From Collinsella tanakaei YIT 12063 (GTDB taxonomy: Bacteria; Actinomycetota; Coriobacteriia; Coriobacteriales; Coriobacteriaceae), in assembly GCF_000225705.1 (NCBI RefSeq), contig NZ_JH126468.1, positions 62,001 to 126,000 of the forward strand: DNA of 64,000 nt, read 5' to 3'. The notes beneath the pieces were generated by a model that saw nothing but the letters and a program-made list of their open reading frames with translations, was not told the origin of the DNA and searched no databases. The position numbers and the translations under genes are program-made. Positions 10,654 through 30,866 of this stretch are shown here, one piece after another. Position 1 is the first letter of the stretch. Each line of letters begins with the position of its first letter.

Positions 10654-11808
10654 CTAATCTAGCTCGCGCAGCGCGCAGGAAAGCTCGTCCAGACAGCAGC
10701 GCAGTGCCTCCTCTTGCGCGCAATAGCCCAAGCGAGCGCCGCACGGCAGCTCGAAGCGACTACCGGGGACCAGCAGCACACCACGGGACGCGAGCAGCTT
10801 TCTGCAAAACGTCTCATCGTCCATGGAAAGATCCAGGCGGATAAACGACGTGGACACGCCGCGTGGCGGCACCCAGCTCGCGCGCGGCTCGCCAGCGTTC
10901 CATTCCTGCACGATGGCGCGGTTGCGGAGCATAATGTCGCGGTTACGCGCCAAAAACTGGTCGCGATGACGCAAGACGTGGACGGCCATGGCGTCGTTGA
11001 AGACCCCGGCGCAAATAAGGCTGTAATCCCGGCACGTGCGCAGGCGATCGGCAAGCTCTGCGTCGCACACGGTCCAGCCAATGCGGATGCCCGGCACGGA
11101 ATAGGTCTTGGAAAGGCTGTTGGTCGCTATACCGCGCTCGTACACGTCGACGATGCTGCAGTAGGAGTCTCTATCCTCGAGCGGCAGATACACCTCGTCC
11201 GAAAGCACATAGGCGCCAACGCTGCGGACTATCTGGGCGATTGCCTCCAGCTGCTCACGCGACAGGACCGTGCCCGTGGGATTGCTGGCGTTGTTGATGC
11301 AGATCAGCTTGGTGTCCGGGGTAACCAGGCGCTCCAACTCTTCGATGCGCGGCTGCCAGCCATCCTCCTCATGGATACGCCACAGGTCCACCTTCGCCCC
11401 CAGTGTGCGCGGAATCTCGTAAAGCGGCTGGTAGGTGGGGTATTCTACCACCACATGGTCGCCGGGGTTCACTAGCGTGTAGAGCACGGCCAGGTTGGCG
11501 CCCGTGGCTCCGTTCATCTGCAACACGTTATGGGGATCGATGCCGCGCCCGTCCACACCCTGGTAAAGTGCGGCCACCTCTTGCTTGAAATCCGGCGAAC
11601 CCTCTATCCAACCGTAGTTTTGCTTCTTTGAACCCAGTTCATCATAGAAGGCGCGAGCACCCATGCCGGGGCCACCCTGCTCATCGTCCGCAAGCGCAAG
11701 TATTTCATCCGTCGTCAGCGAGGCGATGGTGGATTGGGCGATATCCAGCGTAGCGGACGTCTCCAGCTCGTTGAGCCACTCCTCGACCTCAATGGGCTTG
11801 ATGTTCAT
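10654..11808 (-). CDS. Class I/II PLP aminotransferase
   Basis: A 384-residue fold-type I aminotransferase. NNASNPTGTVLSREQ holds the asparagine that contacts PLP, YVLSDEVYLPL the aspartate/tyrosine pair, and SLSKTYSVPGIRIGW the Schiff-base lysine; GARLGYC near the end has the arginine that binds the substrate carboxylate. The sequence resembles the MalY/PatB and aspartate/aromatic group rather than a biosynthetic enzyme I can name, so the amino acid substrate is undecided. It stands alone on the minus strand, upstream of the aldolase terminator. Confidence 0.85.
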   Translation of the reverse strand: MNIKPIEVEEWLNELETSATLDIAQSTIASLTTDEILALADDEQGGPGMGARAFYDELGSKKQNYGWIEGSPDFKQEVAALYQGVDGRGIDPHNVLQMNGATGANLAVLYTLVNPGDHVVVEYPTYQPLYEIPRTLGAKVDLWRIHEEDGWQPRIEELERLVTPDTKLICINNASNPTGTVLSREQLEAIAQIVRSVGAYVLSDEVYLPLEDRDSYCSIVDVYERGIATNSLSKTYSVPGIRIGWTVCDAELADRLRTCRDYSLICAGVFNDAMAVHVLRHRDQFLARNRDIMLRNRAIVQEWNAGEPRASWVPPRGVSTSFIRLDLSMDDETFCRKLLASRGVLLVPGSRFELPCGARLGYCAQEEALRCCLDELSCALRELD

Positions 11809-15820: not shown

Positions 15821-16681
15821 CTAGCCCTTGATGGGGACGAGGATCTCGGTAACAAACAGGTCGGAATCGTAGGTGGTCCAGTAATCGGTAACAAAGCGCT
15901 CGTAGGAGCAGCCGCACACTTGGTGTCCGTTCTGCTTGGCGAACGCAAAGAGGCGCCGGTACGCCACATCGATGTTCTCGAAGGCGCCGGAGTGGTAGGT
16001 GGAGAGGTAGAGCCCGCGCGGGCGAACGTAGGCGTACTTGGGATCGATGGGCCGCAGCGCCTTTTGGAGGATCGCGGCGTCGCACGGCGCAGTGAAGGTC
16101 TCCGGCTCGGCGTCGCCGAACTCTCGCTTCATGATCACCGGACCGGAGATGACGTTCTCGACCTTGTCGACAAACGCGGTGAACTCGAGGTTGATGGTCG
16201 CTTCGGCGTAATCGCCCGTGAAGCGATACGGCATGCGCAGAAGCTCTTCGCAAGACAGAAACTTGGTGTTAACCGCCAGCGGACAGGAGTTGAGCACAAA
16301 GCTCGCCTCTTCGACCAGCTCGTTCCAGTCGTCGATGATCTCCAGACGCTCGTTGAGCTCGCGGACCGCGCGGGCGCACTCAGCCCGCTGCTCGCGGAAA
16401 CTGCGCCGGATATGGCTGAAATCCGTGCAGTCGAAGACGTCGGCGATCTCTTCCAGCGACAACCCCATCTTCTTGAGGTAGTTGATCACCGGTATCTTGA
16501 GCATGGTGCGGCGCGAATAGTAGCGATAGCTGTTCTCGCCAATCACATCCGGCTCGATGAGCTTCATATCGTCGTAGTGCCTCAGCGCGCGCTGGGACAG
16601 CCCGCCGATCTGGCTCACCTCGCCGATGCGATACAGGTCGTCATGGCAGGAGGCCTCCGCGCTGTTGTGCGTGCAACTCAT
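15821..16681 (-). CDS. MerR-family regulator with GyrI-like effector domain
   Basis: A 286-residue one-component regulator. The N-terminal winged helix reads YRIGEVSQIGGLSQRALRHY, followed by the SYRYYSRRTMLKIPVINYLK segment, then a dimerisation helix and a C-terminal domain of about 150 residues resembling the BltR/BmrR GyrI-like ligand-binding fold (PRGLYLSTYHSGAFENID). Such proteins activate promoters when they bind small, often cationic or aromatic molecules, so choline is an attractive but untested ligand. I choose the ATG at 16681, two bases after the DUF4125 stop and with GGGGGTGT upstream, over an earlier in-frame ATG. The gene sits inside the cut operon. Confidence 0.88.
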   Translation of the reverse strand: MSCTHNSAEASCHDDLYRIGEVSQIGGLSQRALRHYDDMKLIEPDVIGENSYRYYSRRTMLKIPVINYLKKMGLSLEEIADVFDCTDFSHIRRSFREQRAECARAVRELNERLEIIDDWNELVEEASFVLNSCPLAVNTKFLSCEELLRMPYRFTGDYAEATINLEFTAFVDKVENVISGPVIMKREFGDAEPETFTAPCDAAILQKALRPIDPKYAYVRPRGLYLSTYHSGAFENIDVAYRRLFAFAKQNGHQVCGCSYERFVTDYWTTYDSDLFVTEILVPIKG

Positions 16682-16683
16682 AT

Positions 16684-17370
16684 CTACACCCCCGGCAAGC
16701 GGTCGATGGCGCAAGCATAGGCGTACGCATCGAGAATGGGATTAACATCTGATCTCGCCATATCGTCCAACGCGTCGCGCAGGAACCAGACGGTGCGCAG
16801 CGAATACGGCGCCACCTCGGCGAGCATGTAGTCCACCGCGGACACGCGCTGCGGCAGCGAAGTCTCGGCGCGGGCGTGCGCTGCGGCCTTGGGAGAGGTC
16901 TCTGCCGCTTTGCGGGCAAAAGCGGCAAGGGCACGCTCGACCTCGTGCAACGCGCATGCCCTAACCGGCGATACGGCGGGAAGCACGTGGGACCAGTCCG
17001 CACGGAAGCGCTCGGGGTCGGTCACGGCCATCATGCGCGCGTACTTCTCGGCAACCGGATTCCTGCCGGCGGCGTCCAAACCCTTGAGATCGTCGAGGAC
17101 CAGATGGACAAACGCAAAGGAAAACGCCAGGTACTGGGCGAGGCGGTATATGAAGAACGACCGGGCGTCATCCTGGCAGGCCGCGCGCCCTTCAAGACCC
17201 TCGACCCTATCGAAGAACGCCCACTCGAGAGCGACAACCTCTTTGATCGCCGCCATATCGGACGCGCATGCACCGCAGCGAGCGAGCAGCTCGCGCACGG
17301 ACGGCACGTCGAAATACGCCTCGATGACAAATCGCTCGGCGCACGGGCACAAGCCATCGCCAAACCTCAT
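16684..17370 (-). CDS. DUF4125-type helical protein
   Basis: A 228-residue, mainly alpha-helical protein with features of the DUF4125 family, whose function is not known to me. It begins MRFGDGLCPCAERF and contains RSFFIYRLAQYLAFSFAFV and ALDDMARSDVNPILDAYA. RACALH in the middle fits the very loose Rx4-6H pattern of HEPN RNases, which can occur by chance. The start at 17370 is supported by AAGGAGGG ten bases upstream and avoids overlap with the preceding gene; an upstream ATG (17436) lies inside that gene. It is next to a nucleotidyltransferase-like DUF4037 protein and a TPR protein, and probably works with them. Confidence 0.75.
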   Translation of the reverse strand: MRFGDGLCPCAERFVIEAYFDVPSVRELLARCGACASDMAAIKEVVALEWAFFDRVEGLEGRAACQDDARSFFIYRLAQYLAFSFAFVHLVLDDLKGLDAAGRNPVAEKYARMMAVTDPERFRADWSHVLPAVSPVRACALHEVERALAAFARKAAETSPKAAAHARAETSLPQRVSAVDYMLAEVAPYSLRTVWFLRDALDDMARSDVNPILDAYAYACAIDRLPGV

Positions 17371-17389
17371 CTCCCAACCCTCCTTAATC

Positions 17390-18322
17390 CTACCGATAGG
17401 AGCCCGCGTCGACGGGAAGCGACGCCAGGTAGGCATCCGGGATCCCGCGGCAGATCTCCATTGCGACCGTCAACAAGAAGTCGTCGTCCGTCTGCGCCCA
17501 ACCAAGACGGCGGACCACCTGCGCGACCAGCGAGCACAAGGACTCGACAAGCTCTTGCGGCATCGAATCGACAGGGGCGGACGCGAGATAGCCGATGCTG
17601 TCGACCAGTGCGGCGGGCGCGGCGGCGCGCTCCTTCAAGGAACGGAACGACCACTTGTAGAATGGCATGTATACCCCACTAATAAGGTGCATTACAACCA
17701 TAAGCGACGTGATAAATTCTGCACGCGCTGCGTTCGCCGCAACAAGGTCGTGGCGGCGAACGCAGCGTGGCAAATTGTATTGACCGGCCTGCGCCATGCC
17801 GGCGAGTTCGGCTGCAACCTTCTTTTGAAGAACGGCTTGGGGATAGAACGCCAGGTACGGGGCGCGGCGACGGGCCATGACCCCCGCGGGATCGGAAAAG
17901 ATCTCGCCGGCGGTGAACTCGGCAAGCAGCTGCTGCGGTATAAAAAGCCATTCTTTGGACGAGGACGGGGCGGATGCCAGGCCGGTGTAGCGCATACGGA
18001 ATTCGTCCGCATCGAACACACCGGTACGCTTGCCGCTCAACGGGGTCGAGACGCGACGATACCCCATGAACTCACGGGGCAGCTCGTCGTAGCGGCGCTG
18101 AAGCTCCGCTCCAAAGGCGGCGAAGTCGGCGGGCTCGAGCCAGATGCAGAAACCGGGGCCAAAGTCATGGTCGCGCGAGATCTGGTCATCGAATCCCAAG
18201 CACTCCGAGCCGGGGCCCACCAGGCCCAGGGCGCAGCGTTGGCGAAGCCCCTCGAGGCTGCCCGCGAAAAGGGAGGCCGCATATCGCTCGCAATATGCAC
18301 GCGACAGGTCCATGCCCTTCAT
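17390..18322 (-). CDS. DUF4037 nucleotidyltransferase-like protein
   Basis: A 310-residue protein whose N-terminal region (GLVGPGSECLGFDD, then SRDHDFGPGF, about residues 33-57) has the GS...DxD arrangement of nucleotidyltransferase folds, here in the form typical of DUF4037. A helical C-terminal region follows. The family suggests transfer of a nucleotide to an unknown target, but no substrate has been established that I know of. The ATG follows AAGGAGGT with good spacing and lies 12 bp after the TPR gene; DUF4125 follows 19 bp later. It sits in an operon otherwise devoted to a choline microcompartment. Confidence 0.78.
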   Translation of the reverse strand: MKGMDLSRAYCERYAASLFAGSLEGLRQRCALGLVGPGSECLGFDDQISRDHDFGPGFCIWLEPADFAAFGAELQRRYDELPREFMGYRRVSTPLSGKRTGVFDADEFRMRYTGLASAPSSSKEWLFIPQQLLAEFTAGEIFSDPAGVMARRRAPYLAFYPQAVLQKKVAAELAGMAQAGQYNLPRCVRRHDLVAANAARAEFITSLMVVMHLISGVYMPFYKWSFRSLKERAAAPAALVDSIGYLASAPVDSMPQELVESLCSLVAQVVRRLGWAQTDDDFLLTVAMEICRGIPDAYLASLPVDAGSYR

Positions 18323-18334
18323 ATGCGACCTCCT

Positions 18335-19147
18335 TTACGCATCGGCCAGGCGCTGCATGCGCCGGCATTCCTCTTGAAGACGCTCCACCATAGGTGAAGC
18401 ACCCACTTTGTCCCGCAGCGATTCGGCGGCTCGGTGCATATGATCCGCCGCAAGGCGATAATCGCCCATGAGGTAGGCGATTTGGCCCGAGCACGCAAAG
18501 GCGTTGGGACGATGTATGTCGCGCCCATGCGAGATGGTCTCGTATGCACGCAGGGCCGCGTCGATCTCTCGACGGGCCTCATCCAGGCGCCCCTCCTTCA
18601 CCAAGGTCTGGGCAAGGGAGACCTGGGCGACCGCGCGCTTGTCCTGCGCCCCGTCAACCAAGTCGAGCAGGGATACGGCCCGTCGCAAGTCGCGGCGGGC
18701 AAGGGCGTACTCCCCCATCTCGCGGTAGGCGGCGCTGCGGTTGTTGCAAATCGCCGAGCGCTGGTAGGCGGTCTTGATTCCGTCTCCCAGCAAAGCCTCG
18801 GCACGGTCGAACAGGTCGACCGCCGCAGCGTAGCGTCCCTGGGCCACCAGCACGTCTCCCTTGTTGATAAGCAGGTTCGCGCTCGAGGCGGCATCCGGTG
18901 AGGACATGCGCCCGTGGACAAGCAGAGCCTCGTCGTACAGGGCCTCCGCCTGGCGGAGGTTCCCGCGCACGCGCTCCACGCCGCCCAGCTCGCTGGCGAC
19001 CGCGACGATCGCCAGCGGATCGCCGGAGCGGCGCGCGGCGGCAAGCGAATCCGCTAGATAGCGGTAGACCTTGTCGCCGCGGCCATCCCTATAGAGCCCG
19101 TCGACCCGGGCGTAGAACGCCTTGAGGTCGAAAGCTCCCGCAGCCAT
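18335..19147 (-). CDS. Tetratricopeptide-repeat protein
   Basis: A 270-residue all-helical protein made of about five to six TPR-like repeats: GNLRQAEALYDEALLV, QGRYAAAVDLFDRAEALL, MGEYALARRDLRRAVSLL, EGRLDEARREIDAALRAY and MGDYRLAADHMHRAAESL. It has no signal peptide, enzyme domain or DNA-binding domain. TPRs bind partner proteins, so it probably scaffolds the DUF4037/DUF4125 pair or links them to the shell. The ATG lies two bases after the stop of the shell-protein gene at 19150, which implies translational coupling. Confidence 0.82.
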   Translation of the reverse strand: MAAGAFDLKAFYARVDGLYRDGRGDKVYRYLADSLAAARRSGDPLAIVAVASELGGVERVRGNLRQAEALYDEALLVHGRMSSPDAASSANLLINKGDVLVAQGRYAAAVDLFDRAEALLGDGIKTAYQRSAICNNRSAAYREMGEYALARRDLRRAVSLLDLVDGAQDKRAVAQVSLAQTLVKEGRLDEARREIDAALRAYETISHGRDIHRPNAFACSGQIAYLMGDYRLAADHMHRAAESLRDKVGASPMVERLQEECRRMQRLADA

Positions 19148-19149
19148 CG

Positions 19150-19416
19150 CTAGGGCAGGATCTTCTCGATCTCGGAAGCGGGACGCGGAATCACGTGAAC
19201 GGAGCGAAGCTCACCCACGCGCTGCGCCGCAGCGGCGCCGGCGTCGGTAGCTGCCTTGACGGCGGCCACGTCGCCGCGAACGAACGTGGTAACGATGCCG
19301 GCGCCAACGTTGACCTTGCCCACCAGGCGGACGTCGGCCGCCTTGACCATAGCGTCGCTAGCCTCGACAACGCCCACGGCGCCGTAGGTCTCGACCATTC
19401 CCAATGCCTCGTTCAT
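19150..19416 (-). CDS. BMC-H microcompartment shell protein
   Basis: An 88-residue single-BMC-domain protein that should form a hexameric tile with a central pore. The sequence from [20 protein letters not shown] through [18 protein letters not shown] is canonical, ending in [15 protein letters not shown]. It is related to, but clearly distinct from, the pair at 21132 and 21585. It follows the acetaldehyde dehydrogenase gene by 54 bp; a short GCGCCT/AGGCGC hairpin lies between them. Confidence 0.95.
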
Positions 19417-19470: not shown

Positions 19471-21084
19471 TTAGACGCCCTTGAATGCGTTAACGAGCTC
19501 TTCGACCATGCGCTTTAGCTCTTCTGCGTCGATGACGTCGGACTTGCGCTCGCCGTCAGATACCGGAGCGGACGCGTTGGGGGCGCAGCAGCCGCAGCCG
19601 GCGGAATAGGTGATGCCGGACACGCCCTTGGGCTCGCTGGGAGCAGCGGCGGATACGGGTGCGCAAGCGCCGTGCTTCTTGGCGAGCTCGGGGTGGTACT
19701 TAGCGAAGAGCTCGTCATGGGCGACCAGCTCGACGGGCTCGATGAGGCCGTTGGCGACGCGCTTGACGTTGATCAGGTGCTCGGGACCGACGTTCTCGGA
19801 AATGGAGCTGCCGCCCCAGGTGCCGCAGCCCAGCGTGAGCGCGATGTCCAGGCCGGTGGAAAGGCCGGTGCCGCCCTGGGTGCCTCCCGTGTTGATGAGG
19901 ATGCGGGACGCGGGCTTGATGGAGAACTTGCGGACTATGTCCTTGCTCTCCGTATGGATGCTCATGGTGTGGCCGATGCCGTTCTGGAGCAGGGCGATGG
20001 ACAGATCGCAGGCCTCCTCCCAGTTATCGACGGTATAGAAGGCGAGCACGCTGGTGAGCTTCTCGTAGGACAGCGGCCAGGCGTCGCCCACGCCGTGCTG
20101 CTCGCCGATGAGCACGCGGGTGCCGGCGGGAACGGAGATGCCGGCGGCGTCGGCGATGACCTGGGCGGAACGGCCCACGAACTTGGGGCTCATGGCGTGG
20201 CCGTTGCGGAACAGCAGGGTGCAGACCTTGCGGCACTCCTCTTCGTTGAGGAAATAGGCTCCCTGGCGGGTGAACTCGGCGACGACGGCGTCGCGGTTGC
20301 AGGTCTCGCAGATGACGCTCTGCTCGGAGGCGCAGATGGTGCCGTTATCGAAGGTCTTGGAGGCCATGATGCGGCGGACGGCGGCGGGCACGTCGGCGGT
20401 GCGCTCGATGTAGGCGGGCGAGTTGCCGGCGCCGACGCCCAAAGCGGGCTTGCCGGAGCTATAGGCGGCCTTGACCATGCCGGGACCGCCGGTCGCGATG
20501 ATCATGGCGACCTCGGGCGAGTGCATGAGCTCGTTGGTGGCGGCCATGGTGGACAGCGAGATGCCCTGGATGACGTTCTCGGGAGCGCCCGCCTCGACGG
20601 CGGCGTCGTTCATGATCTTGATCGCCATGGCGGTGCACTTGGCGGCCGCCGGATGGGGCGAGAAGACGATGGAGTTGCGCGCCTTGATGGCGATCATGGA
20701 CTTGTAGAGTACCGTGGACGTGGGGTTGGTGGACGGGACGATACCCATCAGCAGGCCCACGGGCTCGGCCAAGACGATGGTCTGCTTCTTCTCGTCGACC
20801 TCGATGATGCCGATGGTCTTCTTGTCGCGGATCTGCTCGTAGAGCAGGCCCGAGGCCATGTGGTTCTTGTAAACCTTGTCGCACACCACGCCAAAACCGG
20901 TCTCCTCGACGGCCATCTGGGCCAGGACCTCGGCGTTTGCCTCTGCAGCCTCGACCATGTTGCGCAGGATGCGGTCAATCTGCTCCTCGCTGTAATGCGC
21001 GATCTGGTTAGCAGCAACCTTGCCGCGGCGAGCCAGCTCGCGAGCGGCCTGGATGCTCTGAAGATCGAAATCAAACTCCTGCAT
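19471..21084 (-). CDS. cutF: CoA-acylating acetaldehyde dehydrogenase of the microcompartment
   Basis: Oxidises acetaldehyde from choline cleavage to acetyl-CoA with NAD+ and CoA. The 537-residue protein belongs to the PduP/EutE/AdhE-N group: ATGGPGMVKAAYSSGKPALG forms part of the cofactor site and TFDNGTICASEQS carries the catalytic cysteine at residue 251. After the enzyme domain comes a linker containing SAGCGCCAPNAS, then an amphipathic C-terminal helix (DVIDAEELKRMVEELVNAF) that looks like an encapsulation peptide. The start at 21084 follows GAAAGGAGGCACG. It provides NADH for the alcohol dehydrogenase and acetyl-CoA for PduL. Confidence 0.93.
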   Translation of the reverse strand: MQEFDFDLQSIQAARELARRGKVAANQIAHYSEEQIDRILRNMVEAAEANAEVLAQMAVEETGFGVVCDKVYKNHMASGLLYEQIRDKKTIGIIEVDEKKQTIVLAEPVGLLMGIVPSTNPTSTVLYKSMIAIKARNSIVFSPHPAAAKCTAMAIKIMNDAAVEAGAPENVIQGISLSTMAATNELMHSPEVAMIIATGGPGMVKAAYSSGKPALGVGAGNSPAYIERTADVPAAVRRIMASKTFDNGTICASEQSVICETCNRDAVVAEFTRQGAYFLNEEECRKVCTLLFRNGHAMSPKFVGRSAQVIADAAGISVPAGTRVLIGEQHGVGDAWPLSYEKLTSVLAFYTVDNWEEACDLSIALLQNGIGHTMSIHTESKDIVRKFSIKPASRILINTGGTQGGTGLSTGLDIALTLGCGTWGGSSISENVGPEHLINVKRVANGLIEPVELVAHDELFAKYHPELAKKHGACAPVSAAAPSEPKGVSGITYSAGCGCCAPNASAPVSDGERKSDVIDAEELKRMVEELVNAFKGV

Positions 21085-21131
21085 CGTGCCTCCTTTCAAT
21101 CACGCGATGCCTGATGGCGATGAAAGCGTTC

Positions 21132-21575
21132 TTACTTGGCGGCGGGCAGGATGGTCTCGACGGAGCCGTCGGGGCGAGGGATGACGTGGACGGATAGGAG
21201 CTCGCCTACGCGCTGCGCGGCGGCGGCGCCGGCGTCGGTAGCGGCCTTGACTGCTCCCACGTCGCCGCGGACGAACACGGTGACGAGGCCGCCGCCGACC
21301 TGCTCCTTGCCGACGAGGGTGACGTTGGCCGCCTTGACCATGGCGTCAGCGGCCTCGACCGCGCCTACGAGTCCCTTGGTCTCGATCATGCCGAGGGCCT
21401 GAGTCATGTTTGCCATCTTGATCTCCTTCTTGGGGGTCTGCTCGGGCTGCTTGGGTTCAGCCGTCGCGGGTGCTTCTTGCTTGGGTTCCTTTGCGGCGTG
21501 CGCTGCGGGAGCCTTCTTGGGGGCCTCTACCGGAGCCTCCTGCTCGCCGGCGGCCGCAGGCTTCTTCTCTGCCAT
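21132..21575 (-). CDS. BMC-H shell protein with N-terminal Ala/Pro/Lys extension
   Basis: A 147-residue product: residues 54-147 are a canonical BMC-H domain ([20 protein letters not shown] and onward), almost identical to the neighbouring 95-residue protein. Residues 1-53 are a low-complexity, charged Ala/Pro/Lys/Glu/Gln segment (for example [17 protein letters not shown]). The codon for Met54 is preceded by AAGGAG, the same ribosome site used by the neighbouring copy, so the gene probably makes both a long and a short form. The extension could be a flexible tail on one shell face, or an anchor. It begins nine bases after the neighbouring gene ends. Confidence 0.9.
21414..21428 (-). promoter_or_regulatory. 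Internal ribosome-binding site and start codon
   Basis: AAGGAG (21423-21428 on the minus strand) stands six bases before the in-frame ATG at 21416 within the extended BMC-H gene. The same bases precede the start of the short copy at 21872. This predicts a 94-residue short product from the gene. Confidence 0.65.
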
Positions 21576-21584
21576 GGCGAGCCT

Positions 21585-21872
21585 TTAGGCCTGGGTGCCG
21601 GGCAGGATGGTCTCGACGGAGCCGTCGGGGCGAGGGATGACGTGGACGGAGAGGAGCTCGCCCACGCGCTGAGCGGCGGCGGCGCCGGCGTCGGTAGCGG
21701 CCTTGACTGCTCCCACGTCGCCGCGGACGAACACGGTGACGAGGCCGCCGCCGACCTGCTCCTTGCCGACGAGGGTGACGTTGGCCGCCTTGACCATGGC
21801 GTCAGCGGCCTCGACCGCGCCTACGAGCCCCTTGGTCTCGATCATGCCGAGGGCCTGAGTCATGTTTGCCAT
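21585..21872 (-). CDS. BMC-H shell protein, tandem copy
   Basis: A 95-residue hexameric shell protein. Residues 1-91 match Met54 onward of the neighbouring extended protein with essentially no change; only the last few residues differ (GTQA against AAK). The two gene bodies are also nearly identical at DNA level, which points to recent tandem duplication or gene conversion. The ATG follows AAGGAGATCAAG. It is probably a major facet protein. Confidence 0.95.
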
Positions 21873-25426: not shown

Positions 25427-25761
25427 GACCTGGTCACCTCCGCGCAGCAGAAGCCCATTTGGTCGTGAAGGAACCGGACGACCTCGCCGATAGCGGTCTC
25501 GACGCTCTGGACGTCGCCCAAAACCACCACCGATCCGGTGAAGCGGTCGAGAAATCCGATCGAGACCGACGCCGCCTTTGACGCGACGTCCGCCGCGATG
25601 ATCGCGGTCTCCTCGGGCGAGAGCGTGAGGATGCCTATCGACTCGCCGCTGGGCACGCCGATCCGCTCGTGGATCTCAGGGCCCGGGCTGGCGATGACGT
25701 GGGCGATCGTCACCTGCTTGCCGGGGACGGATTCCTGGATGATGCGCGAAAGCTTCTCCAT
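25423..25761 (-). CDS. EutS/PduU-type BMC-H shell protein
   Basis: A 112-residue circularly permuted BMC-H protein. RIIQESVPGKQVTIAHVIAS, the ILTLSPEETAIIAADVASKA segment and SIGFLDRFTGSVVVLGDV match the EutS/PduU group, whose N-terminal strands form a beta-barrel over the hexamer pore. GGGGAGGGGAGC precedes the ATG. It begins 12 bp after the CutD gene. Confidence 0.95.
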   Translation of the reverse strand: MEKLSRIIQESVPGKQVTIAHVIASPGPEIHERIGVPSGESIGILTLSPEETAIIAADVASKAASVSIGFLDRFTGSVVVLGDVQSVETAIGEVVRFLHDQMGFCCAEVTRS

Positions 25762-25773
25762 GCTCCCCTCCCC

Positions 25774-26718
25774 TTAATGGCTCACGAGGTTGACGGTGAA
25801 GTCGGCGTCGCCTATCCAGGACTTGATGCGCTTAAGGTCGGCCTCGGTGAGCGAGGGATCGTCCTTGATGGCGTAATCAAGGTCCAGCTGGCCGTACTTG
25901 CCCACGCCGAGCTTGTGGTACGGAAGCAGGTCGACGCCGTCGAAGTTCTTCTGGTAGCGATAGGGCGTGAAGAAGGCGATCACCGCATCGATCTCCTCCT
26001 TGCTGTCGTTGACCCCCTTGAGCAGGGGCATGCGCACGCGCACGTTGAAGCCGTTCTCAAGCAGCGTGCGAACATTCTCCAAGATCAGCTCGTTGTTGGC
26101 GCCGGTCCACTGCTTGTGCTTGACCGGGTCCATGTGCTTGATATCGAAGAGGAACAAATCGACGTGCTCGGCGACCTTCAAAAGCGTCTTGGTGGGAACG
26201 TAGCCGCAGGTCTCGACGGCGGTGTGGTAGCCGCGCTTATGGCAGGCGACCAGCAGGCTCAAGGCTGCCTCGGGCTGTGCCAGGGCTTCGCCGCCGGAGA
26301 GCGTGATGCCGCCGCCGGACATGCGGTAGAAGTCCGCGTCCTGATCGAAGAAGGCCAGAAGCTCGTCGATCGACTTGTCCTCGCCCATGATCTTCAGGGC
26401 GTTGTGCAGGCAAGCCTCCTCGCACAAATGGCATCCCATGCACTGGACGTCGCGACGGACCCTGTGCTCGCCCGCCACCATCTGGTGGATGTCGACGGGG
26501 CATACGTCCACGCATGCGCCGCAGTTGACGCATGCCGAGGCCTTGAACATGACCTCGTGCCCGCGATGCTGGCTCTCGGGATTGGAGCACCATGCGCACC
26601 GCAGCGGGCAACCCTTGAAAAACGCCATCGACCGAACGCCGGGGCCGTCGTACATGTTGTACTTCTGAAGGTTGAATATACGAGCTTTACGCTCTACATT
26701 CGCTTGCTCAAGACTCAA
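25774..26718 (-). CDS. cutD: Choline TMA-lyase activating enzyme (radical SAM)
   Basis: Uses S-adenosylmethionine and a reduced 4Fe-4S cluster to install the glycyl radical on CutC. The 314-residue protein has the radical SAM motif in FKGCPLRCAWCSNPES, two ferredoxin-like clusters (CVNCGACVDVCP and CMGCHLCEEAC) typical of glycyl-radical activases of this class, and SGGGITLSGGEALAQPE for SAM binding. The start is a TTG at 26718 behind AAGGAGGT. It lies 63 bp after cutC. Its specificity for CutC is inferred from adjacency. Confidence 0.95.
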   Translation of the reverse strand: MSLEQANVERKARIFNLQKYNMYDGPGVRSMAFFKGCPLRCAWCSNPESQHRGHEVMFKASACVNCGACVDVCPVDIHQMVAGEHRVRRDVQCMGCHLCEEACLHNALKIMGEDKSIDELLAFFDQDADFYRMSGGGITLSGGEALAQPEAALSLLVACHKRGYHTAVETCGYVPTKTLLKVAEHVDLFLFDIKHMDPVKHKQWTGANNELILENVRTLLENGFNVRVRMPLLKGVNDSKEEIDAVIAFFTPYRYQKNFDGVDLLPYHKLGVGKYGQLDLDYAIKDDPSLTEADLKRIKSWIGDADFTVNLVSH

Positions 26719-26781
26719 CGCCCTACCTCCTTGTGTATTCCGGCGCCCGGTCGGTTCTTCTTGCTAAAAGGCAATCTCTCG

Positions 26782-29319
26782 CTAAAACTTGGTGAGCATG
26801 GTGCGGCTGATGATCTCGTCCTGAACGTCCTTGCACAGCTCGACAAAGAACGCGCTGTAGCCGGCGACGCGGACCACCAGGTCGCGATGCTCCTCGGGGT
26901 GCTCCTGGGCATCAAGAAGGGTCTTGTTGTCCAGGTAGTTGAACTGCATCTCGCCGTTGCCGTACATGCAGGCGGTGCGGAGCAGGGTCACCAGGCCGTT
27001 CTCGCCCTCGGGGGTGTCCAGCAGGCCGGCCATCAGCTTGAAGTTGTGGACCATGCCGATGTTCATGCTGTCGTTGGCCATCTTGGAAACGGACTTGATG
27101 ATGGCCGTGGGGCCGTTGAAGTCCGCACCCTGGGTGGGGCTGATGCCGTCGGAAAGCGGGGTCCAGGCGCGGCGGCCGTTTGCGGACGCACCGGTCAGCT
27201 GACCGAAGGGCGTGTTGTTGGAGATGGACAGCGTGCCGTGGGACAGGCGCGAGTACAGCGTCTTGAACTGGCTGTGGATGTGCTCGGTGTAGTGGACGAT
27301 GTCGGCGCAGATGCTGTCCGCGTAGTCGTCGTCGTTACCGTACTTGGGAGCCTTCAGGCAGTCCTGGCGCATCTGCTCATAGCCCTCGAAGTCCGCCTTG
27401 AGGCCTTCGTTGAGCTCCTCAAGCGTGTACTTGTGGTCGTCGAAGACCAGCTTCTTGATAGCGGCCATGGAGTCTGCGTAGGTCGCAAGGCCGCTCCACA
27501 CCACGCCGGGACCGAAGTTGTACATGGCGCCGCCGGCGGAGACGTCGCGACCGTGCTCCATGCAGCCCTCGAACATGATGGACATCAGGGGCTTGGGAGC
27601 CATATCGCGATGGACGCGCTGGGAGATGACGGTAGCCACGGAGGTCCACTTGGTCATGTAGTAGATGGTCTCCTTGACCGCGTGCTCGAACTCCTCGTAG
27701 GTGGAGTACTGGGACAGCGGGCCCAGGTCCGGAGTGACCTGCTTGCCGTACCACAGGGGCACGCCGTGATTGAGCGTGAGCTCGATGGCAATGGGCCACT
27801 GGGTGTAGGAGGTGGAGGTCCACTGATACAGGCGGCCGGACTTCTGGGGCTCGACGCAGCCCATCATGCAGTAGTCGCGCGAATCCTCAACGGAGATGCC
27901 CTTGGCAAGCATCATCTTGATATGGGAGTCGTCGAAGTGGCATGCGGGGAAGCCCATGCCGGAGCGAACGACGTCGACGATCTTGCGCAGGTACTTCTCG
28001 GGAGACTTGTTGTGGATGCGGCAAGCCAGCGAGGGCTGGTAGATCTTGACGTGGCGCACCGCGTCCATCAGCAGGTAGGTGAGGTCGTTGGTGGCGTCAG
28101 CGCCGGCGCGGGTCACGCCGCCCAGGGTCATGTTGACAAAGGGCTGGTAGCCGGCGAAGAACTTGGAAGAGGCCTCGCTGGTGACCCACATCATCTCGCT
28201 CATCTTGATGAGCATGCAGCCAGCCAGGTCGAATGCCTGGTAGTTGTTGAGGCGACCGGACTCGATATCGGCCTTGTAGAACGGATACATGTACTGGTCG
28301 ACGCGGCCGATGGACATGCCGGTCTGGTTCTCCTCGACGGGGAGCAGGGACTCGATGACCCAGACGGACTGGATCGCCTCCCAGAAGGTGGTGGGCTTGT
28401 GGGCGGGAACGTTGCGCAGGTTAGCGGCAATCTGCTCCAGCTCGGCGCGACGGCGGGGATTCTGCTCGCTACGGGCCTTCTCCAGCGCGTAGTCGGACAG
28501 GCGACGGGCGTAGATCATGACGCCCTCGGTGGTCTCGACGATGGACTTGTAGAAGTAGATCTTATCGAGGTCGTCGGGATTCTCGTAATCCAGATGGGCC
28601 AGGTACTCCTTGGCCTCGTCCTGGATGTCCTGCATGCCCTTCTTCATCAGGATGACGTCGTAGCCCGGGTTGGAGTCGCCGCCGCCGTTGACCTGGTGAT
28701 AGGAGCAATCGGAAACAAAGGACTCGCCGGAGAGCTCCCAGACGCCCGCCTCGCGATACTGGTCCTCGCAGTACTCGTCCAAAGACTTGCCCTCCCAGAA
28801 CGGGAAGAGCTCCTCGCGCATGTACTTCTTATCCTCTTCGGAGATGAAGAAGGGATCCTGCGGACGGGTGCCGATGGTGTCGATCTCGTCGCGCAGCCAA
28901 CGCCAGGCGATGTCGGGAGAGAACGCGCCGGCGCGAGGAGCGCCGCAGGGGGAACCGACGATCAGCTCGTCGTCCTGGATGACCAGCGGGGCGGTCTCGC
29001 AGCAATAGCGGAAGCACTTGGCGCGCAGAAGGATCTTGGGCATGCCCGGGTTCTTCTTGGTGAACTCGGTGACGGCGCGGGCGCGGTACGTGGTGATGGT
29101 GGGCACCTGCTTCAAGAAATTCTGCTTGAGGCGAACGTGGCGCTCGGTGGGGCCGTCGGGGATCTCGGTGGGATCGGCGGTAGCGGCGACCTTGGTGGTC
29201 AGCGGGCGGTCGAGCTGGTCGTACACCTGCTCGAACATCTTGCGGACGGTGTCGCGCTGCTCGTCGCTCATCTCCTTGGTGGCGTCGGACAGCTCCTTTG
29301 CAAACTCCCTGATATCCAT
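26782..29319 (-). CDS. cutC: Choline trimethylamine-lyase (glycyl radical enzyme)
   Basis: Cleaves choline to trimethylamine and acetaldehyde by glycyl-radical chemistry in the microcompartment lumen. All key residues known from Desulfovibrio CutC (D216, F395, C489, E491, G821) are found one position lower: D215 in [11 protein letters not shown]394 in YQPFVN, C488 and E490 in [11 protein letters not shown], and G820 in RVAGYSAFF. The length (845) is the short form without the long N-terminal extension of type II enzymes. This excludes pyruvate formate-lyase, diol dehydratase and isethionate lyase on pattern. It is preceded by AGAGGTAAGG and followed by cutD. Confidence 0.97.
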
Positions 29320-29333
29320 CCTTACCTCTTTTC

Positions 29334-30866
29334 TCAGTACGTTTTAACGTCTTCCAGCAAGCTGGAGAACCAATTGGACATTGACTCGGAAGCGGGCTTC
29401 TCCCGGCATTCCTCAAGGCGATCCGGCTCCTTCTCGCATGCGCTTTCGCAGGCGGTCGGCGCCGCAGCCTCATCGGGATCCATGAGGCCCGCATCCTTCA
29501 ACAGCTCGCAGTCGCCATGGGAGGCACCCACGCCAACCTGGCGGCGGCGGATGAAGTCTCGATAGGTCACGCCCATATCAGATGAGCAGGCGTTATCCCA
29601 TCCGGTAATGGTCAGCGTCTTGGGTAGCGTGGAATGACAACCGGTCGCGCCCATTCCCGTTCCCACGTTGACCAAGATGCGACCGACGGGCTTTTTGAGG
29701 ACGAATTGCCTCACCACCTCGCCGTCGCGGGAGAAGATCGAAAGCGCGTTGCCGTCCCCGCTGTTGAGGATGAGCTCGATGCACTTCTCGCAGGCACCGC
29801 GCCAACTCTCCTCGACGTAGTAGGACAGCACCGGGCCGTACTTGGCCTTTGAGAAGACGCTGTGCTCGGAAACATAGGGCTTCTCGACCACAAGCACCTT
29901 GGTGCTCTCCGGGACCACCAACCCGGCGCGGCGCGCCATGTCGAAGGCGGACTTGCCGATCAGCTCGCGATACGGCTTGCCGCACGGCTTGAAGAGCGTC
30001 TTAGCCAGGGACTCGGCCTCTTCATCGCTCAGGAAATAGCACCCGCGCGCCTTGAGCTGAGCCCTGAACTTCTCGTCCACCGCCCGCTCGACCACAAGGG
30101 ATTGCTCGGCTCCGGGCATCATGCCGTAGCAGAAGCTCTTGCCCGCGACCACCTCTTCGGCGCAATGAGCCAGGTCGGCGGTCTCCTCGACAAAGACCGG
30201 GTTGTTGCCGATCGATGCGTGGTAGACGTCCTTGCCGCCCAAGTCGCTGGCGACCACGCGCTCGTATTCGCGCGAATCGATCACCATGCGAACGGCGGGT
30301 TGGCAGGCGAGCCAAGCGTCGCCCTCCTCGGAGTACTGGTGCAGAAAGCCCAGCGCCTCGAGCGGGTAATGGCAGGCGGCGGCTACATCGGCCACCTCAG
30401 CCATCAGCGACTCGCAAGTCGCGTGCGTGCGAACGCGGGCAGAGAAGATCACGGGGGTCTTTGCCTTGACCGCGCACAGAAGCTGGCTTAACAGGGTGGG
30501 AACCGTCAGCCAATCGGGCAAAAACGAGACGACCACGCCCTTGGGCAGTCCCGTCTCGATGCCATGGGTCCAGCCATCGCGGTAGATCTGCTGTACCTCG
30601 AGCTGCGAGGAGACCTCATCGAGCATCTCGGTGAGAACCCACTCGGTCAGAGCGCGCTCGTCTTCCGGGTTGCCGTAATCGCTCTCGCGACAGGCCTGCT
30701 TGGCGAGGTCGCCCGCCTGCGGCAGCAGCCTCTCTCGAAGCTGCTGCAGAAAGCCACGGACCAAACCGTCGCCCAGGCCCTCGAGCACGCCTTGGGATTC
30801 CTCGGCATGCTCCAACAGGATGCGCGCTTCCTGAATGGATAGAAGATCGTTATCGATCAGCGGCAT
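29334..30866 (-). CDS. cutB: Aldehyde dehydrogenase homologue lacking the catalytic cysteine
   Basis: A 510-residue relative of the acetaldehyde dehydrogenase at 19471. Aligned on the shared EQS, the catalytic segment TFDNGTICASEQS is replaced by [13 protein letters not shown], which puts proline (residue 251) where cysteine should be. The glycine-rich cofactor segment is also changed ([20 protein letters not shown] in place of ATGGPGMVKAAY). It ends in a cysteine/glutamate-rich linker and a short helix ([14 protein letters not shown]) that could target the lumen. It is probably a structural or regulatory pseudoenzyme, or an enzyme with different chemistry. Many choline loci carry two dehydrogenase genes, hence the tentative symbol. 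Confidence 0.8.

Follow-up and report, generated by a model that had tools for sequence, protein, structure and literature searches.

What do three adjacent genes for a TPR protein, a DUF4037 protein, and a DUF4125 protein do within a choline microcompartment operon? The genes lie on the minus strand of the window (the whole 64,000-nucleotide stretch of Collinsella tanakaei DNA analyzed here), and a sequence-only reading had proposed that they form a control module, in which a nucleotidyltransferase, a helical partner, and a TPR sensor act on microcompartment assembly or metabolic state.

A three-gene cassette in a cut operon

The TPR protein (270 amino acids; 18335..19147, minus strand) matches Pfam TPR_12 (E = 2e-19) and four TPR_2 stretches. 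It is followed by the DUF4037 protein (310 amino acids; 17390..18322, minus strand; PF13228, E = 1.5e-28) and the DUF4125 protein (228 amino acids; 16684..17370, minus strand; PF13526, E = 3.5e-32). For the latter, the start was taken as Met-23, because the 250-residue open reading frame reaching to 17436 overlaps the DUF4037 gene. Directly upstream of the TPR gene lies a gene for a microcompartment (BMC) shell protein (19150..19416, minus strand; PF00936, E = 4e-25), and directly downstream of the DUF4125 gene a MerR/GyrI-like regulator gene (15821..16681, minus strand; likely start 16681) that is part of the cut locus. The regulator scores 209.7 bits against NF053782 (“choline utilization transcriptional activator”), under the 450-bit cut-off. 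Read from the sequence, the gaps are 2 bp between the shell and TPR genes, 12 bp between the TPR and DUF4037 genes, 19 bp between the DUF4037 and DUF4125 genes, and 2 bp from there to the likely MerR-type start, which confirms the arrangement first described for the trio (12–19 bp apart, behind a shell gene and ahead of a MerR gene). The host, a member of the Coriobacteriia with a 2.49-Mb genome, carries a single copy each of DUF4037 and DUF4125.

The GRE (glycyl radical enzyme) of the locus is the choline trimethylamine-lyase CutC (26782..29319, minus strand; TIGR04394, 1650.7 bits with a cut-off of 1050), encoded ∼10 kb upstream of the trio in the same operon. Its radical-SAM activating enzyme CutD (25774..26718, minus strand) shows a CxxxCxxCxN motif. 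The operon also encodes two EutE-like aldehyde dehydrogenases (19471–21099 and 29334–30866; TIGR02518 matches), an alcohol dehydrogenase, further shell proteins, EutJ, and PduL. Its gene content, which combines CutC and CutD with a pair of aldehyde dehydrogenases and with shell proteins, identifies it as a GRM1-type choline microcompartment locus. The GRM1 type is described with an additional aldehyde dehydrogenase and is reported from Olsenella uli (PMC4207490). Whereas cutC, cutD, both aldehyde dehydrogenases, the shell genes, EutJ, and PduL are shared with the GRM1 choline locus, the trio differs in being an optional cassette there, and it is not mentioned in the text of the BMC surveys consulted.

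Two features of the operon were noted in passing. The shell genes at 21132–21872 have nearly identical BMC domains, and the second of the pair in operon order carries an extra Lys/Ala/Pro-rich N-terminal extension of ∼50 residues. On the plus strand, an open frame of 1298 codons (25669–29565) runs antisense to cutC and cutD and most likely just reflects high-GC codon usage.

A conserved unit with a predicted nucleotidyltransferase

We examined 80 loci from Bacillota, Thermodesulfobacteriota, Chloroflexota, Spirochaetota, and Actinomycetota. Of 79 loci, 57 have DUF4037 adjacent to or fused with DUF4125, and 52 encode a TPR protein nearby. Natural DUF4037–DUF4125 fusions were found in 15 open reading frames, 14 of which have a TPR part in front; the remaining one (L114) is cut at a contig end. 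About a dozen further fusions join TPR and DUF4037. The domain order of the fusions, TPR–DUF4037–DUF4125, is the gene order of the window. At the level of sequence, natural fusions in this order show that the three parts make up one unit, and together with the shared order they are the strongest evidence for joint action of the three. The question whether the trio co-occurs across genomes, raised by the sequence-only reading, is thereby answered in the affirmative. Fusions of DUF4037 to TPRs had already been noted in a survey of HEPN domains (PMC3710099).

Exceptions to the full set exist. A diverged DUF4125 subfamily of ∼200 amino acids is encoded near genes for 4-hydroxyphenylacetate decarboxylase (HPAD) in four loci (L059, L060, L061, and L047), one of which (L047) also has a TPR gene. 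No DUF4037 was seen near DUF4125 in these four, indicating that DUF4125 can exist without the nucleotidyltransferase. In eight Actinomycetota DUF4125 loci (families f39 and f55), the stretch seen contains no GRE and no trio partners.

The DUF4037 protein carries a GxGS...DHD motif, in which GS (Gly-38 and Ser-39 in the window protein) is followed by DxD (Asp-51, His-52, and Asp-53) at a spacing of 9–13 residues. Gly-38, Ser-39, and Asp-51 are present in 36 of 36 relatives and Asp-53 in 35 of 36 (one Asp to His), so that the nucleotidyltransferase pattern noticed at the outset is invariant or nearly so. Asp-144, a candidate for the third catalytic carboxylate, is conserved in the alignment as well, and the family has invariant motifs of its own, GQYNxxR and PxxKW.

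No solved structure matched DUF4037 or DUF4125 by sequence. Structure prediction for DUF4037 was carried out on a two-part piece of a natural fusion (L129:9083-10591) whose DUF4037 part is 38% identical to that of the window. In the model (mean pLDDT 95.5; pTM 0.71), the DUF4037 part matches 3c18 (E = 2.3e-3, probability 1.00), LinB, and ANT(4′), the last with a Z of 12.1 and an rmsd of 6.7 over 237 residues. The C-terminal bundle of DUF4037 matches the HEPN protein 4nqf (Z = 9.5). Lower matches are DrrA (6yx5, Z = 7.2) and GlnE (1v4a, Z = 5.7). DUF4037 is thus predicted to be a nucleotidyltransferase with the fold of the aminoglycoside nucleotidyltransferases and a C-terminal helical bundle, and the fold whose absence from a structure prediction would have spoken against the sequence-only reading is present. 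The HEPN survey had placed DUF4037 with the C-terminal domains of aminoglycoside nucleotidyltransferases, without the catalytic Rx4-6H motif (PMC3710099). Although DUF4037 shares the fold, the GS...DxD motif, and the C-terminal helical bundle with ANT(4′), LinB, and 3c18 (DNA polymerase β superfamily), identity to them is only 9–12%, and DUF4037 differs by its own motifs, by being co-encoded or fused with TPR and DUF4125, and by its place in GRE operons.

The window DUF4125 protein is modeled as all-helical (pLDDT 93.3), as had been supposed from its sequence. No PDB chain is close to the model (best Z = 2.8 among the matches listed), no HEPN chain is among the matches listed, and DUF4125 is possibly a protein of new fold. 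Its RACALH segment, which had been thought to fit a HEPN motif loosely, did not hold up as such: RACALH (Rx4-6H) is present in the window protein, but the His column is Asp or Glu in 29 of 42 rows, and on this motif we reject HEPN in DUF4125. Nearly invariant are Glu-49, Trp-50, Phe-53, Cys-65, Gln-66, Arg-76, Asn-104, Glu-108–Lys-109–Tyr-110, Tyr-181, Glu-185, and Ser-190; so many conserved residues suggest a site rather than a mere scaffold.

Linkage to glycyl radical enzymes

DUF4125 is rare, being present in 27 of 298 Coriobacteriia genomes. Of the 33 Coriobacteriia copies, 26 have a GRE gene (PF01228) within 12 kb, where gene number and genome size would predict 1.44 (P ∼ 1e-30), and the GRE-near copies span 13 of 14 Coriobacteriia genera. 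In a second set of 46 genomes, picked by DUF4125 similarity only, mostly from other phyla and with many short contigs, 17 of 54 copies lie within 12 kb of a GRE gene (1.65 expected, P ∼ 5e-14). Relative to the genome background, both sets are enriched by a factor of about ten or more. The scan of genome contigs was run with a single peptide pattern, EKYARMM, and favors copies carrying this motif. Among 396 sampled Actinomycetota, all 12 DUF4125-bearing genomes fall among the 78 that have a GRE.

Within the 298 Coriobacteriia, DUF4125 is present in 12 of the 13 genomes with CutC and in 11 of the 13 with HPAD, and overall in 21 of 24 genomes with either enzyme versus 6 of 274 others (P = 7e-24). 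All these P values assume independence among loci, which does not strictly hold, as the CutC-linked copies are one clade. In the DUF4125 tree, the CutC-linked copies form this single clade with a support of 100/100, and GRE-linked copies are scattered over many branches. By GRE type they are scattered but clustered (21 changes versus 38 when shuffled), and, the one CutC clade excepted, the tree does not suffice to show that DUF4125 traveled together with each type.

The linkage has its limits. Outside the Coriobacteriia, a GRE within 12 kb is missing from about two thirds of the loci, for which broken contigs account only in part. Most Coriobacteriia with only pyruvate formate-lyase (PFL) or NrdD have no DUF4125, indicating that DUF4125 answers no general GRE need and is tied to certain catabolic GREs. 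Natural GRE loci without DUF4125 also exist, one with CutC (genome G116) and two with HPAD (G066 and G133). In a further genome, G156, the DUF4125 gene sits at an HPAD locus, and a cutC fragment with one in-frame TGA (G156:C12:16200-17384) is apparently what is left of a decayed cut locus.

Around DUF4125, the GRE and its activase are the commonest neighbors from outside the trio (35 and 36 of 110 loci, respectively), whereas the main shell-gene cluster is found in 11 of 110. Same-strand runs with small gaps that hold a GRE or activase gene occur in 20 loci, and shell genes are lacking in 14 of these. One such run (L033) consists of an hpdB-like GRE, an 85-residue small subunit, the activase, TPR, DUF4037, and DUF4125, and the start of the TPR gene adjoins the stop of the activase gene.

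The partner GREs, assigned by NCBIfam, are of many kinds. Besides CutC in the window and other Coriobacteriia cut loci, they comprise HPAD (L033 and L047 over the cut-off, L128 below), indoleacetate decarboxylase (L038 and L111), a partial sulfopropanediol dehydratase (L086), the PFL2 family (L042 and L099 over the cut-off, L044 and L068 below), and, in Lachnospiraceae, the class III ribonucleotide reductase NrdD with NrdG2 (L135 and L097); a benzylsuccinate-synthase-like activase (L083) scores below the cut-off. As these enzymes differ in substrate, the common factor is the type of catalyst.

We conclude that the link of the trio to GREs is well supported, and that TPR, DUF4037, and DUF4125 probably constitute one unit serving these enzymes. 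LrcL (DUF4125) and LrcM (DUF4037) were detected as proteins in a GRE-using limonene degrader, where their genes follow bssE on a contig other than that of the GRE operon (PMC12583861). Beyond this operon description, we found no paper in the open-licence literature that ties the trio to GREs. Each of the parts falls into a known fold or a named Pfam family, and the module and its GRE link are apparently undescribed.

Possible function of the module

The proximity of the trio to shell genes invites the explanation that it is a microcompartment-specific control module acting on shell assembly. Indeed, the trio directly follows a shell gene in the window and other Coriobacteriia cut loci, and BMC genes occur together with TPR and DUF4125 in a Lachnospiraceae locus (L099). 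However, 22 of 23 GRE-linked loci of the L062–L141 set lack BMC genes, and genome G116 has a complete-looking cut locus (L150 = G116:C10:16000-35900; CutC, 1624 bits) without the trio. In G116 the shell gene, TPR, DUF4037, and DUF4125 are all absent between the aldehyde dehydrogenase (stop at 10843 of L150) and the MerR gene (start near 11008), and the MerR and alcohol dehydrogenase genes are kept, indicating that the trio is an optional cassette that is not needed for the microcompartment genes as such. With most relatives devoid of nearby shell genes, the company that the trio keeps, with or without a microcompartment, is that of GREs; we reject a microcompartment-specific role and regard action on shell assembly as highly improbable.

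GREs have radical chemistry in common but not substrates, so the most likely point of action of a recurrent partner is the enzyme, the radical, or the activase. We therefore favor a TPR-docked nucleotidyltransferase module whose role is to control or protect certain catabolic GREs or the corresponding activases, and put the probability of this reading at about one half. Docking to the GRE or to its radical-SAM activase would be the task of the TPR part, the cutD product being a possible target in the window. DUF4037, which we infer to be catalytically active, would move a nucleoside monophosphate, probably AMP, onto the GRE, the activase, or DUF4125, and DUF4125 would be either this substrate or a regulatory or effector subunit. 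Under oxidative or substrate-poor conditions, the GRE might then be switched or protected, e.g. by blocking the glycyl-radical domain or activation; the direction could be inactivation, protection from oxygen, or help with activation. What survives of the control module foreseen by the sequence-only reading is the conserved set of nucleotidyltransferase, helical partner, and TPR protein, borne out by fold and fusions, and what falls is microcompartment assembly as its target.

Protein nucleotidylation is suggested by the pairing of a nucleotidyltransferase with a TPR docking part and is modeled on the action of GlnE and DrrA toward their protein targets; for the GRE, the activase, or DUF4125, it is a tentative proposal. 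DUF4037 shares with GlnE and DrrA the fold class, a helical C-terminal part, and the type of mechanism proposed here, but the structural scores are weak, the targets and partners are others, and a protein target of DUF4037 is only proposed. Alternatively, DUF4037 could modify a small molecule, either a pathway substrate or a toxic product, in the manner of its nearest solved folds, the antibiotic-modifying aminoglycoside and lincosamide nucleotidyltransferases. We consider this unlikely, since the substrates and products of the linked GREs (choline, arylacetates, sulfopropanediol, and ribonucleotides) are unrelated and fusion to TPRs fits protein partners better.

Somewhat less unlikely, though still doubtful, is that the trio senses the metabolic or redox state and, through a nucleotide signal or partner binding, regulates the operon at the level of transcription or translation. 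The TPR part matches TPR regions of regulators such as NsdA, and regulators do adjoin the trio (MerR in the window, LuxR and kinase genes in HPAD and indoleacetate decarboxylase loci), but the trio proteins have no DNA-binding domain according to Pfam, and the regulator differs with each kind of locus, whereas the trio recurs with the enzyme. If the module belonged to anaerobic catabolic operons in general, its proximity to GREs would be indirect. The many loci outside the Coriobacteriia without a nearby GRE are consistent with such an arrangement, but it accords poorly with the rank of GRE and activase among the neighbors and with the enrichment in two sets, and is hence improbable. Least probable of all is a toxin–antitoxin or defense unit of the nucleotidyltransferase/HEPN kind, to which the HEPN-like bundle of DUF4037 (tabulated as such in PMC3710099) would lend itself. 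As in MNT-HEPN pairs, a nucleotidyltransferase stands beside or fused to a HEPN-like bundle; however, the bundle is inside DUF4037 itself and listed without the Rx4-6H motif, DUF4125 lacks the HEPN motif, with RACALH unconserved, and the catabolic operon is a stable setting. PADLOC gave no match for the three window proteins, and an anti-phage defense system was rejected on this ground.

GREs are oxygen-sensitive enzymes. In the gut they yield trimethylamine, p-cresol, skatole, and precursors of hydrogen sulfide, and GREs also initiate the anaerobic degradation of hydrocarbons. To our knowledge, little is known about their control or rescue after radical formation beyond the activase and spare-part proteins. 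A conserved module that recurs with GREs of unrelated substrates is a concrete and testable candidate for such a function, and provides context for two Pfam families of unknown function. Like the known accessory proteins (radical-SAM activases, the YfiD/GrcA spare part, and the BssE-type ATPase), it is encoded with GREs and would serve the enzyme, but none of these is a nucleotidyltransferase, a TPR protein, or a DUF4125 protein. Conceivably, albeit with less than even odds, the trio represents a previously unrecognized post-translational control or repair of GREs, in which a TPR-guided nucleotidyltransferase switches or protects the glycyl radical state by nucleotidylating the GRE, the activase, or DUF4125. 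If so, its use would extend to the GREs for choline, 4-hydroxyphenylacetate, indoleacetate, and sulfonate, among others, in several phyla.

Two split GREs were observed along the way. A CutC-like GRE under the CutC cut-off is divided into open reading frames of 772 and 98 residues (L040:13894-16533), ∼5 kb from a DUF4125 gene. In the host genome, outside the window, a PFL (G000:C2:174712-177380; L152:712-3381, minus strand) consists of a 735-residue core without glycyl domain and an 83-residue open reading frame with the motif IRVSGYAV ∼210 bp downstream. Judging from half-matches to PF01228, several Coriobacteriia and Lachnospiraceae may show the same split, and as NCBIfam has a GrcA3 family, it may be known already.
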